DNA of 59,162 bases from the NCBI GenBank assembly GCA_022760355.1, contig JALEGB010000018.1, positions 1-59,162 on the forward strand. Reading direction: 5' to 3'. A program made the position numbers and the translations under genes. Each line of letters starts with the position of its first letter. Positions within the stretch are counted from its first letter, which is position 1. Positions 8,521 to 14,304 of the stretch are shown piece after piece. This stretch comes from Neomegalonema sp. Lineage in GTDB: Bacteria > Pseudomonadota > Alphaproteobacteria > Rhodobacterales > Rhodobacteraceae. The notes beneath the pieces were generated by a model that was not told the DNA's origin, did no database searches, and saw nothing but the letters and a program-made list of their open reading frames with translations.

Positions 8521-9219
8521 ATGCTTTTTCGTTCTGCAATTTTGTGCTTGAGCTTAACTTTGGGCGCGCTTGCCCAAAGCCAGGCTTCCGCGCAATCGAT
8601 CGCCACCGCGGCGACCGTTGACGATTTGATCGGCAACACGATTGTCGGGGTGACCGATAGCGGCGGCGTTTGGGGGGCGAGCCTCTATCGGGACGGCGAA
8701 GCAGCCTATTTGTTCGTAAGCGGCAAACGCGCATCCGCACGGTGGCGACGCGCGGACAATCAGACGCTTTGTTTCGAGTTCGACGACGGCGCAAGCGCCT
8801 GCAAGGTTATTTCATCCGCCGGCCAGGGGCTGCACTGGCGCACCGAAGGCGACAGCAAGATCAGCTCCCAGCTGATCCTGTTGCTGCCCCTCGGCGTCTA
8901 TCCGGATCAATCTTCTTACCGCTCAACCATTCGCCGCTGGCGCGGCGCCTTCGTTGTCGGCCGCACAAAAAAGGACCGGGAAATCTGGTACGCCGATCTC
9001 CAGCGCGACGGCAGCTTCACATTCTCCAGCACTGGCGGGTCCATCCGCTCCGGCTCCTATGAGCTGCGTGACGGCGAGGTCTGTTTCTACTATTCAGACG
9101 ACACTGCGGCGCATTGCCGGCGCCCTGAAGTCGATGGCGAAACAATCTCTTGGGTCGACACGCTCTCCGGCTCCGCCATTTCGGACATCGTCTATCTTCA
9201 TTTCGGCCGCCGACGCTGA
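8521..9219 (+). CDS. secreted protein with two cysteine-pair modules, function unknown
   Basis: A 232-residue protein with a clear signal peptide (cleavage near SQASA-QS). The mature part seems to hold two similar modules. Each has a DG-rich beta segment followed by a paired cysteine motif: LCFEFDDGASACK in the first and VCFYYSDDTAAHC in the second. The same pattern (W, then C-F-x-Y/F, then C) occurs in the single-module proteins at 13221 and 13840, so it is probably a distant two-module relative. GAGG lies seven bases before the ATG. It may stand alone or be cotranscribed with the next gene. No function can be assigned. Confidence 0.8.
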   Translation: MLFRSAILCLSLTLGALAQSQASAQSIATAATVDDLIGNTIVGVTDSGGVWGASLYRDGEAAYLFVSGKRASARWRRADNQTLCFEFDDGASACKVISSAGQGLHWRTEGDSKISSQLILLLPLGVYPDQSSYRSTIRRWRGAFVVGRTKKDREIWYADLQRDGSFTFSSTGGSIRSGSYELRDGEVCFYYSDDTAAHCRRPEVDGETISWVDTLSGSAISDIVYLHFGRRR

Positions 9220-9681: not shown

Positions 9682-10236
9682 GCTGTTGGCGTTTGCGCCG
9701 CCGGTCCGCGCGGCCTCGGCGCGAGCCCCCAACGCCCTCCATAAGTCTTTCTGCCCGCCGCTGCAGAGCGGGCAGGTCAGGGATATATTCCCCCGAAAGC
9801 CCTGCGCATGCTCTACTGCGCGCGAACCTGTCAGCGGGCGCTCCCCTGACCGATGAACTGTGCCGGCATTCTCGGGCGGCCCACAATAGAAGAAGAGCCG
9901 AGCAGACGCGCGCAAAAAGCTTCTTCACGCTGCGCCGCGGTGCAGCGCCGGCGGTCAGGGCGCATCCCGACGAGGCAAAGGTTTCATAGCGCCCAAACGC
10001 CGGCTCCGAGGAAGCGGAGATTCGCGTCAAACACGATAGCGAAACTCAAGAATCCGCCAAGCGCGAAGGATTAAATTTTCCGATGCAATCCAACCACAGG
10101 CGGAAGCGCCCGAGGTCGGGCAAAAACTTAACCCGCGACGATTAGGTTGAGCTCTGCCGCTCAATTTGGCCCAGTTACTGCAGTGATGTCGTTCAACACG
10201 TCTATGTCACGCCTAACGCACATAATGGGGACCAAC
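9682..10236. other. gene-free stretch upstream of the VPEID-CTERM-like gene
   Basis: About 555 bases with no supported gene. It contains a hairpin without a T tract (9751-9775) and, near its end, the inverted repeat at 10147-10164. The frame of the downstream gene stays open back to a TTG at 10147, but that extension has no ribosome site and no coding look. Confidence 0.6.
10147..10164 (+). promoter_or_regulatory. TTGAGC-N6-GCTCAA inverted repeat, possible operator
   Basis: A perfect six-base inverted repeat 72 bases ahead of the preferred start of the sorting-substrate gene. Its spacing suits a dimeric regulator. Nothing more can be said about which protein might bind. Confidence 0.4.
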
Positions 10237-10428
10237 ATGTCGTTTTTTGAAGCACTGTCTGGCTGGAAACTGGACGCAATGGGCGGCTTCGACCGCTGGT
10301 TCGAGCAGTTCATGGACCGCCACAATGATCCAGTGTCCGCGCCTGAGATCAATGCCGTCGCCGCCGTCGCAGCCGTTGCGGCCACGATCGTCGCAATTGG
10401 AATGATCCGCGAGCGGTTCAAAAAGTAA
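10237..10428 (+). CDS. VPEID-CTERM-like exosortase E substrate, small membrane-anchored protein
   Basis: A 63-residue protein with an amphipathic, aromatic N-terminal part (MSFFEALSGW, then FDRWFEQFMDRHND), followed at 33-39 by VSAPEIN, one Ala/Val-rich transmembrane helix (about 40-56) and the basic end RERFKK. Motif, helix, then positive cluster is the tripartite layout of exosortase sorting signals, and APEIN resembles the VPEID motif recognised by exosortase E. The next gene, six bases downstream, is that enzyme. I chose the ATG at 10237 (GGGGA six bases upstream); in-frame starts exist up to 10147. The role is inferred: presumably this is the dedicated target, cleaved before or within the PEI motif. 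Confidence 0.78.
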   Translation: MSFFEALSGWKLDAMGGFDRWFEQFMDRHNDPVSAPEINAVAAVAAVAATIVAIGMIRERFKK

Positions 10429-10434
10429 TCAAGC

Positions 10435-12114
10435 ATGGCGGCGAGCGATCAGTTTCCCCCCCGCTCGACGGGGATCAGCACAACACGCGCCACGCAATGG
10501 GCGCCACGGACGCGGTTTGCGAGCCTCGTCCTGCTGGCGGCCGGCGAGCTCCTCTTGTTGAGCCTGTTTTTCTCGCTGGACTTCGTGTTCGGCGCAGCAG
10601 GACTGTCGGCGCGCGTGCTGATGACTCTGGCGAATGCTCTGCCGCTCTCGATGATTATGGCCGGCGCCCTGCTGGGCGTGGGCTTGGCGCGCCCTGGCGC
10701 GCTGCAGCCATTGCTTCAAGGCGCAGAGCGAGACCGACGCGGGGCGCTGCCCGCCATCGGGCATTTCGTCGGTTTCGCCAGCTTTGCCGCAATTCTCACC
10801 GTCACGCAGATTGGCGGCCTGAAGGTTTCGCATGACGCCATTTTGGCGGGGCTGCTTGCCGCCTCTTTGTTGGCGGGCGTCAGCTTTGCGCGACTGATCG
10901 CGCCATTGTCCGCTTGGATCGCCTTCATCCGCGCCGAAACGCCCCTGCTCATCGCAGCCGCGGCAACTGCATTGACCGCGATCGTGCTTGGAACTGTCGC
11001 GCAGGACTATTGGCGGCCGCTTTCGGACGCCACGCTCACCCTGTCGCGGCTTCTGCTCAATGCAGCGACCAGCGACGTTGTCTATGATCCAGCCGCGCGC
11101 ATGATCGGCGCCGGCGACTTCAAAGTGCTGATCGCCCAGCAATGTTCCGGCTATGAAGGCGTCGCCCTCGTCCTGAGCTTTCTGGCGTTCTTCGGCTACG
11201 TGTTTCGCGCAGAGCTGCGTTTCCCACATTTTTTGTTGCTCGCGCCGATCGGCGTTGTCGTTATCTGGCTGAGCAACTCCTTTCGCATCGCGGCGCTCGT
11301 CCTTGTCGGCTCGGAGATTTCCGGGCCGCTCGCAGCCGGCGGCTTTCATTCCTTCGCCGGTTTGGCGCTGTTCCTGGTCGTTTCCCTGACGCTTTCGCTG
11401 ATCGCGCTAAGGATGCCGTTCTTCCGACGGGATGGCGAAGCGCCGGCTCGGCGTCCGGAGGCGACGCCGGCGCAAGCGGAACGCGTTCGGCTTGCCGACG
11501 CGATGCTGCTGCCCTTTTTGGTCTTCCTGCTCAGCGGCGTTGCGCTGACCATGGCGTTTGACCTGCCTGAGAGGCTCTACTTCGTCCGCGTCGCTGCGAT
11601 GCTTATCGCAGTCAGCTTCTTTGTCTCAATCTACCGTCAGATGGATTGGCGGATTTCGACCGATGCAATTGTCGCCGGCCTTGCCGTCGCCTTGTTTTGG
11701 GTTTGGGTGGCGCCGACCGAGACGTCCGAGAACACGACGAAGCTGCTGGCCTGGCTCAAGGATGGCCCCGCGTTTGACGAAGTGCTGTGGTTGCTTGCTC
11801 GCGCCGTAGGTTTCGTCCTGCTGGTGCCGTTGGTTGAGGAACTCGCTTTTCGCGGCTACCTGCACAGGATCATCGCCCATGGCTCGCTGGATGGCGCGCC
11901 TGAGGCGACGTTCTCCTGGCGCGCTTTCCTGATCACCTCGGCCCTTTTTGGCGCGCTTCACAGCCGCTGGTGGGAGGGGGCGCTCGCGGGCGCGCTGTTC
12001 GCCTTGGCGATGTATCGCAGCGGCCGGCTCTCCAACGCCATCATCGCGCACGCAATCGCAAACGGAGCGATTTTCGTCTATGTGCTCCTAACCGGACATT
12101 GGGCGGCGCTCTAA
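10435..12114 (+). CDS. xrtE: exosortase E / CPBP-type protease fusion (VPEID-CTERM system)
   Basis: A 559-residue polytopic membrane protein made of two enzymes. The N-terminal half (to about 330) has the exosortase/archaeosortase triad: Cys237 in QQCSGYEG, Arg284 in NSFRIA and His305 in GGFHSF. The C-terminal half carries a CPBP/Abi-type intramembrane protease signature: Glu468-Glu469 and Arg473 in VEELAFRGYL, His509 in FGALHS, and His539/Asn543 in the last helices. This fusion defines exosortase E of VPEID-CTERM systems. The preceding gene encodes a fitting substrate and ends six bases before this start, so coupling is likely. Exosortases are thought to cleave or transfer C-terminally anchored proteins; what is attached here is unknown. 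Confidence 0.88.
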   Translation: MAASDQFPPRSTGISTTRATQWAPRTRFASLVLLAAGELLLLSLFFSLDFVFGAAGLSARVLMTLANALPLSMIMAGALLGVGLARPGALQPLLQGAERDRRGALPAIGHFVGFASFAAILTVTQIGGLKVSHDAILAGLLAASLLAGVSFARLIAPLSAWIAFIRAETPLLIAAAATALTAIVLGTVAQDYWRPLSDATLTLSRLLLNAATSDVVYDPAARMIGAGDFKVLIAQQCSGYEGVALVLSFLAFFGYVFRAELRFPHFLLLAPIGVVVIWLSNSFRIAALVLVGSEISGPLAAGGFHSFAGLALFLVVSLTLSLIALRMPFFRRDGEAPARRPEATPAQAERVRLADAMLLPFLVFLLSGVALTMAFDLPERLYFVRVAAMLIAVSFFVSIYRQMDWRISTDAIVAGLAVALFWVWVAPTETSENTTKLLAWLKDGPAFDEVLWLLARAVGFVLLVPLVEELAFRGYLHRIIAHGSLDGAPEATFSWRAFLITSALFGALHSRWWEGALAGALFALAMYRSGRLSNAIIAHAIANGAIFVYVLLTGHWAAL

Positions 12115-13220: not shown

Positions 13221-13676
13221 CTACCGTCCGGCCTTGCGCGCAGCAAGCACAGCGCCAAAGCTTCCGAAATAGTCCTTCGGACTTAGGACAAAAGGCGCCC
13301 GACCGCTCCGCAAGTCAAAAACATCGTCTGCGCGTTTAGAGATAGTGGTTTCATAATAGTCACTCAAACTCATACAAATATCCACGCCTGCCGGCTCCGT
13401 CGGCGTCGCCTTGAATACGTATGTAGGATAATTAAAACAGATCTGAAACGCGCCTTTCAGCCACCAGCGCCCCGGCACGATCCGCTCTTCGCCCGGATAC
13501 CAGAGATAGGCGCGCCCTTTTGAATCGAGAAATTCGATCTGCACCCCATGCGTCCCGTCGAAGGAGAGGAAAGTATGCTCGCCAAGCGGCGGGCCGCCAC
13601 GCTCCGCATGCTGCGCGGAAACTCCGGCGCCGCCCGCGACAACAATGGCCAGCACCATCAGCAAACGTATCGCCAT
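13221..13676 (-). CDS. secreted cysteine-pair protein, paralogue of 13840-14304
   Basis: A 151-residue exported protein (signal peptide cut near VSA-QH). Its mature part aligns along its whole length with the product of the next gene upstream: H-T near the start, DG-x-x-GV, KGRAYLWY, GRWW, a CFNYP motif, a second Cys about 22 residues later, then KR-x-x-DVF, APF-x-LS and YFGSF. The two cysteines probably form a disulphide. GGAGGAG lies seven bases before the start. The two genes are tandem duplicates on the same strand. The function is unknown. Confidence 0.8.
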   Translation of the reverse strand: MAIRLLMVLAIVVAGGAGVSAQHAERGGPPLGEHTFLSFDGTHGVQIEFLDSKGRAYLWYPGEERIVPGRWWLKGAFQICFNYPTYVFKATPTEPAGVDICMSLSDYYETTISKRADDVFDLRSGRAPFVLSPKDYFGSFGAVLAARKAGR

Positions 13677-13839: not shown

Positions 13840-14304
13840 CTAACGCCTCATGCCCACGGCGCGCTGGATCGCTTCAAAACTTCCAAAATACTGGCCCTTC
13901 GACAGCGTAAATGGCGCAACGCCGCGGGTCAGCCCAAACACATCTCCAGGGCGTTTGGCGATAACACGTTCGAAATAAAGCGGGCGCGACAGGCAAAACC
14001 ACTCACCCGGCTTAATATTAGGCGCATAATCAAAGGTGTAGTCGGGGTAGGAGAAACAGACGGCGCCGCCAGGATCTACGCGCCAATACCCCTTGATCGG
14101 CTTCGCTTCCCCTCGATACCAGAAATGCGCCTTCCCTTTCGCGGCCATATATTCTATCGCCACGCCGCCAAATCCGTCCGCCATAATAATCGTATGGCCC
14201 ACCAGCGGCCCGCCGCTATCCGCGTGCTCCGCCCTCGCGCCGCCGACCGCCGCCACGATGATCGCAGCGGCCAGCAATGCACGTCGCCCTGCGCCCCAAG
14301 CCAT
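13840..14304 (-). CDS. secreted cysteine-pair protein, paralogue of 13221-13676
   Basis: A 154-residue exported protein with a signal peptide ending near ARA-EH. It shares the framework of its downstream neighbour: GGPLVGHT, DGFGGVAIEY, KGKAHFWYRGE, GYWRV, CFSYPDY, a second Cys in WFCLS, KRPGDVF, APFTLS and YFGSF. GGGAG precedes the ATG by six bases. It starts 78 bases after the end of lpdA on the same strand, so weak read-through from the pyruvate dehydrogenase operon is possible. The function is unknown. Confidence 0.8.
   Translation of the reverse strand: MAWGAGRRALLAAAIIVAAVGGARAEHADSGGPLVGHTIIMADGFGGVAIEYMAAKGKAHFWYRGEAKPIKGYWRVDPGGAVCFSYPDYTFDYAPNIKPGEWFCLSRPLYFERVIAKRPGDVFGLTRGVAPFTLSKGQYFGSFEAIQRAVGMRR

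Follow-up and report, generated by a model that had tools for sequence, protein, structure and literature searches.

The gene pair at positions 10237 to 12114 of the window, the whole 59,162-nucleotide stretch of Neomegalonema sp. DNA analysed here (contig JALEGB010000018.1), is a real, intact and dedicated exosortase E pair, consisting of the fused exosortase/CPBP protease XrtE and a 63-residue client. The enzyme belongs to a known family; what is new is the client, which is divergent, lacks a signal peptide and lies outside the official substrate model TIGR04161. The missing signal peptide, overlooked in an earlier note on this DNA, is the feature that truly stands out, and it puts in question the rule that exosortase clients depend on one for export. 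The parts of the pair are as follows:

10237..10428, + strand: 63-residue dedicated substrate candidate, with a 34-residue N-terminal part without signal peptide, APEIN, one transmembrane helix and an RERFKK tail
10288..10323, + strand: amphipathic segment FDRWFEQFMDRH in the small protein (hydrophobic moment 0.75)
10339..10425, + strand: C-terminal sorting signal APEIN + helix + RERFKK (PEIx-CTERM type)
10435..12114, + strand: XrtE, an exosortase E / CPBP protease fusion of 559 aa (TIGR04162, Pfam Exosortase_EpsH, Pfam Rce1-like)
11080..11412, + strand: exosortase catalytic region, residues 216-326, with the periplasmic beta-lobe and C237, R284 and H305
11467..12111, + strand: CPBP glutamic intramembrane protease half, residues 345-559, with E468, E469, R473, H509, H539 and N543

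Both open reading frames were re-read, and the two-gene layout and coordinates reported earlier are correct, as is the description of the small protein as 63 residues with APEIN followed by one helix and RERFKK. The small ORF (10237-10428, + strand) has the C-terminal end APEINAVAAVAAVAATIVAIGMIRERFKK, and xrtE (10435-12114, + strand) starts 6 nt past its stop codon in the same frame.

The earlier note had proposed comparing the large protein with the exosortase E profile, and XrtE passes the NCBI exosortase E/protease model TIGR04162 nearly end to end (264.2 bits against a cut-off of 150, residues 31-557 on profile positions 2-514 of 516). Pfam Exosortase_EpsH is also matched, as is Pfam Rce1-like (48.4 bits, above cut-off), and the C-terminal half scores 102.6 bits against TIGR03008, the CAAX-type protease of PEP-CTERM loci (cut-off 81); against the MrtJ model the CPBP half reaches 34.8 bits, under the cut-off of 75. 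The exosortase triad C237, R284 and H305 and the CPBP residues E468, E469, R473 and H509, all picked out previously from this stretch, are invariant across 63 diverse XrtE sequences, and H539 and N543 (HxxxN), absent from that first list, are further invariant residues of the CPBP half. A sequence search of solved structures gave no match. The AlphaFold2 model of the enzyme is confident (mean pLDDT 88.5, pTM 0.84), and its best row in VIA-align 2 is SpdC (6u0o_A; Z 7.2 over 188 residues, model residues 348-558), a match to a CPBP-like fold at a middling Z, with nothing usable returned on the exosortase half. In the open-access literature searched, no biochemistry was found for any XrtE member, in agreement with the earlier remark that it is scarce or absent.

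Codon usage of the small ORF is gene-like from residue 1: its own frame scores +0.45 bits per codon, inside the range of neighbouring genes (0.27-0.69), the other two forward frames fall below zero, and the coding signal begins at the ATG at 10237 (+0.50 for 10237-10341 and -0.30 for the in-frame extension 10147-10236). Together with the coupling to xrtE by a 6-nt gap and the detection of the ORF by a profile of its relatives' tails, described below, this makes it very improbable that the small frame is an artefact or a decayed gene, a reading favoured by the lack of any family above cut-off in NCBIfam or Pfam and by the lack of a close relative for measuring selection, the genus being represented by one genome.

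The VPEID-CTERM model TIGR04161 (cut-off 33 bits), against which the earlier note had wished to see the small protein checked, gives no match to it even at E<=10 and nothing over cut-off in its own genome; the clients of upstream-type relatives, defined below, score 29-34 bits, near the cut-off. When a profile was built from the C-terminal tails of mini-proteins at other xrtE loci, leaving the window protein out, the small ORF was its sole match among 1116 window ORFs (E=4.3e-5), with PEI, the helix and the ER...K tail aligned. A similar short profile run genome-wide gives the window protein at E=0.24 and one noise match at E=0.029; such a profile is too weak alone at that scale, so the case rests partly on adjacency to xrtE. 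The matches to TIGR04162 and to the relatives' tail profile uphold the earlier identification of an exosortase E system comprising an enzyme and a PEI-type mini-substrate. The small frame is also kept beside xrtE in relatives, a point on which that identification had been made to depend: a mini-protein with a PE[IMV]x-helix-basic tail lies near xrtE in at least 88 of 110 distinct loci, counted by a strict pattern in small ORFs within 3 kb of xrtE, with further cases seen by eye. In annotated relatives the mini-protein is often labelled merely hypothetical; ORFs directly upstream of xrtE at L137:7319-7513, which ends in a VPEIS tail, and L140:7159-7386 carry this label.

The motif at the 88 loci is VPEID in 48, V/IPEIS in 22, VPEMD in nine, APEID in five and VPEIN in one, a Gemmataceae locus, and its P and E are invariant over 30 diverse tails. 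Given this spread, APEIN falls inside the natural variation of the family and is not the remarkable feature it was first taken for. The nearest tails end in RERFKR or RERMKR (L081, L141 and L089), close to the RERFKK of the small protein, which belongs to a wider PEIx-CTERM group defined in this analysis by the tripartite tail and linkage to xrtE.

Two locus types were distinguished: the client lies upstream on the same strand as xrtE in 37 loci, mostly with VPEIS and including the window, or downstream and convergent to xrtE in 47 loci, with VPEID or VPEMD. Exosortase targets are described as bearing a signal sequence (PMC12188702). The small protein lacks this general N-terminal mark of an exosortase substrate; judged by composition, with the start fixed by codon usage, it contains no hydrophobic stretch before the motif. 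By the same measure the window client is the only one without a signal peptide among the 37 upstream-type loci, those of the others being recognised by an automatic rule in 33 cases and by eye in L087, L099 and L062. The predicted signal-peptidase site of these relatives lies 12 residues (median) from the PEI motif, while the window client has 34 residues ahead of its motif and carries the amphipathic FDRWFEQFMDRH, whose hydrophobic moment is equalled by 2% of shuffles, where a signal peptide would be. Counted by eye, this N-terminal part has a net charge of about -4; the C-terminal tail is basic. A signal peptide is also missing from 17 convergent-type clients (Roseovarius VPEMD; Marivita-type and L006/L074 VPEID), whose sequences start with stretches rich in aromatic residues, for instance MFDWFWNGWYG or MWWDSWRIFFGGG. 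In Roseovarius and Marivita, signal-less VPEMD/VPEID clients of this kind, their N-termini rich in Trp and Phe, lie next to xrtE at L110:7183-7371, L096:7449-7622, L125:7395-7565 and L118:7152-7328.

A gene for a large SdrD-B/Ig/thioester-like protein lies just upstream of the pair in 29 of the 37 upstream-type loci and in none of the 47 convergent-type loci. Its product has a conserved C-terminal end, QPFIIGVxF..DCLC, and could represent a third component alongside enzyme and client. The gene is absent at the window, at L085 and L012 and in lineages outside Rhodobacteraceae. The possibility of a lost partner was considered; a search of the genome by C-terminal profile, run without a positive control, found no large thioester/DCLC protein. 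The large upstream proteins are encoded by ORFs of ~500-1760 aa with SdrD-B, Ig/cadherin and weak thioester-domain matches, most without an obvious signal peptide; Rhodobacteraceae examples include L067:141-5432, L059:1805-5176 and L077:2376-5141.

The signal-less N-terminus and the strict adjacency to xrtE would also suit a small protein that stays with XrtE as a permanent subunit, docked by its helix and with its amphipathic N-terminus remaining cytoplasmic or on the membrane, with the true clients being proteins that the profiles miss. The linkage of the large protein points the same way, as the mini-protein could be a helper at those loci. However, the invariant P and E of the motif and the tripartite build are those of a sorting signal, the relatives' ~12 residues between signal-peptidase site and motif leave little for a partner fold, and the large partner gene was not found in the genome, making a partner subunit unlikely and favouring the small protein as a client.

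No glycosyltransferase or polysaccharide-export genes were seen among the main window ORFs, which thus lack the nearby polysaccharide genes of an EPS-linked exosortase locus. The earlier note had recorded this absence accurately and counted it as a standout; it is in fact usual for the upstream type, which mostly carries the SdrD-B/thioester-type gene. At annotated plasmid loci of the family, polysaccharide genes are found near some xrtE copies and are absent near others. On Rhodovulum and Leisingera plasmids, xrtE lies amid polysaccharide export and synthesis genes (L138:1-10766 and L139:2452-16837), and one of these loci also has a rhomboid protease gene (convergent or distant-client type). 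Within the window, the pair is flanked by genes for small proteins with signal peptides at 13221-13676 (-), 13840-14304 (-) and 8521-9219 (+); the first two products are 44% identical, the third is weakly similar to both, and none has a Pfam or NCBIfam match above cut-off.

The host genome (3.86 Mb, 97% complete), the only one of its genus in the comparison, encodes one exosortase. Pattern and profile searches found no second PEI-helix-basic protein in it: the PEI[DN]A DNA pattern occurs at 13 sites, with a helix and basic tail at the window site alone, so that the genome scan suggested previously returns the window protein only. One exosortase and no second substrate seen in the genome argue for a dedicated pair. 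Compared with any other XrtE, the window enzyme shows only about 30-40% identity, and in the tree it occupies a long branch just outside the remaining clade, sampled mainly from Rhodobacteraceae with one other alphaproteobacterial family (support 99/97 for the window with the clade and 100/99 for the clade without it); sequences from Burkholderiales, Acidobacteria and Planctomycetes lie further out. The gene may have been transferred recently from outside the family or may reflect deep vertical descent, the long branch favouring neither. XrtE is sporadic, occurring in 32 of 293 sampled genomes of the order and 4 of 385 of the class; an alignment-based scan recovered xrtE in named genomes where a single-protein scan found none. 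Contamination of the contig was ruled out by the window threonyl-tRNA synthetase, which is 67-74% identical to those of same-family genomes and mostly 47-62% to others, the exception outside the family being a partial match of 68%; this enzyme also agrees with placement of the genome in Rhodobacteraceae as drawn by GTDB.

Averaged over the 63 XrtE sequences, loop charge follows the alternation expected from the positive-inside rule. Taken with the helix prediction on the AlphaFold2 model, this places the two active sites on opposite sides of the membrane, a point that the earlier note had missed: C237, R284 and H305 are predicted to face the periplasm, and E468, R473, H539 and N543 to lie near the cytoplasmic surface. 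The exosortase site would then act at APEIN, whereas the CPBP site would work where the client helix ends on the inner side. The locus is likely a dedicated unit of one XrtE and one client, with the exosortase working outside and the CPBP half clearing inside. For the membrane orientation, the cut site, the order of steps, any transfer and the role of the CPBP half, we infer the following scheme. The C-terminal helix would carry the client into the inner membrane in an N-out/C-in orientation, as expected from the acidic N-terminal part and basic RERFKK tail, and the N-tail is short enough that it could cross without a cleavable signal peptide. The periplasmic exosortase site C237/R284/H305 would recognise PEI and cut after or near it (between APEI and N), whereupon the ~38-residue amphipathic N-terminal peptide would be released or passed to an acceptor (lipid or glycan); a role of exosortases in surface/EPS attachment has been described (PMC12188702). 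The cytoplasmic CPBP site (EE...R, H, HxxxN) would most likely destroy or expel the leftover helix-RERFKK stub.

Against this explanation stand the missing signal peptide, the lack of a TIGR04161 match and the low-confidence docking: in an AlphaFold2 model of a read-through client-enzyme fusion the client has a pLDDT of 30-50 and its placement is not confident, and Foldseek with the fusion model gave no match at E<=0.001. Myxosortase, a CPBP protease, has been shown experimentally to remove a tripartite C-terminal tag, reportedly cutting just past the lipidated cysteine at the outer end of the substrate helix (PMC11980579). A cut at that end suggests that CPBP sites are not restricted to working from the cytoplasmic face, a further point against the preferred explanation, and tag removal is a precedent for an independent sorting role of the CPBP half. 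This precedent, in which the tag was cleaved in E. coli when myxosortase was co-expressed (PMC11980579), is the main argument for the CPBP half making the first cut, either cutting the client for transfer by the exosortase half or trimming the basic tail so that the exosortase can act. The relationship of the CPBP half to myxosortase-type sorting proteases, visible in the MrtJ score below cut-off, fits such a division of labour, which is possible but rather unlikely, the two sites being predicted at opposite membrane faces. To our knowledge, exosortases other than XrtE generally lack a fused CPBP domain, which also speaks against it.

It is conceivable, though rather unlikely, that the unit is a peptide-making machine and not a protein sorter: a signal-less 63-residue precursor would be threaded N-out and cut by a two-faced XrtE, and the ~38-residue amphipathic peptide would be set free, or capped with a lipid or glycan, at the surface, where it would serve in wetting, adhesion or signalling. 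If true, signal-less aromatic-rich clients would have evolved repeatedly, in this lineage as well as in the Roseovarius VPEMD and Marivita-type clades.

Exosortases are widespread and their chemistry is almost untested, since most have many large, low-similarity clients. With one exosortase, a fused protease and one 63-residue client, the question of cutting or transfer and of how the two sites divide the work shrinks to two small genes, which could be moved into E. coli. The value of the pair lies in its minimal size and in the test that it offers of the rule on exosortase clients.

Among the closest known systems, the pair is comparable to exosortase E/VPEID-CTERM of Rhodobacterales (TIGR04162 + TIGR04161), sharing the enzyme architecture, the catalytic residues and the adjacent PEI-helix-basic mini-protein; it differs in an APEIN tail missed by TIGR04161, the absent signal peptide and an enzyme only about 30-40% identical to the others and placed just outside their clade. 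The XrtA (EpsH)/PEP-CTERM system has its exosortase and CAAX-type protease in separate genes, within a polysaccharide locus, and serves many signal-peptide substrates. The same two enzyme families meet in one locus in both systems, and the C-terminal half of the window enzyme passes TIGR03008; in the window the two are fused in one gene. With myxosortase MrtX/MYXO-CTERM the pair has in common a CPBP protease and a motif-helix-Arg tail, a system experimentally shown for MrtX, but MrtX lacks an exosortase domain and has many substrates with a signal peptide and a lipidated Cys. The MrtJ/JDVT-CTERM dedicated pair likewise joins one sorting protease to one tripartite-tag protein (PMC11980579), and the CPBP half of XrtE weakly resembles MrtJ; MrtJ, however, has no exosortase half, and the invariant Cys of JDVT-CTERM is missing from the window client.
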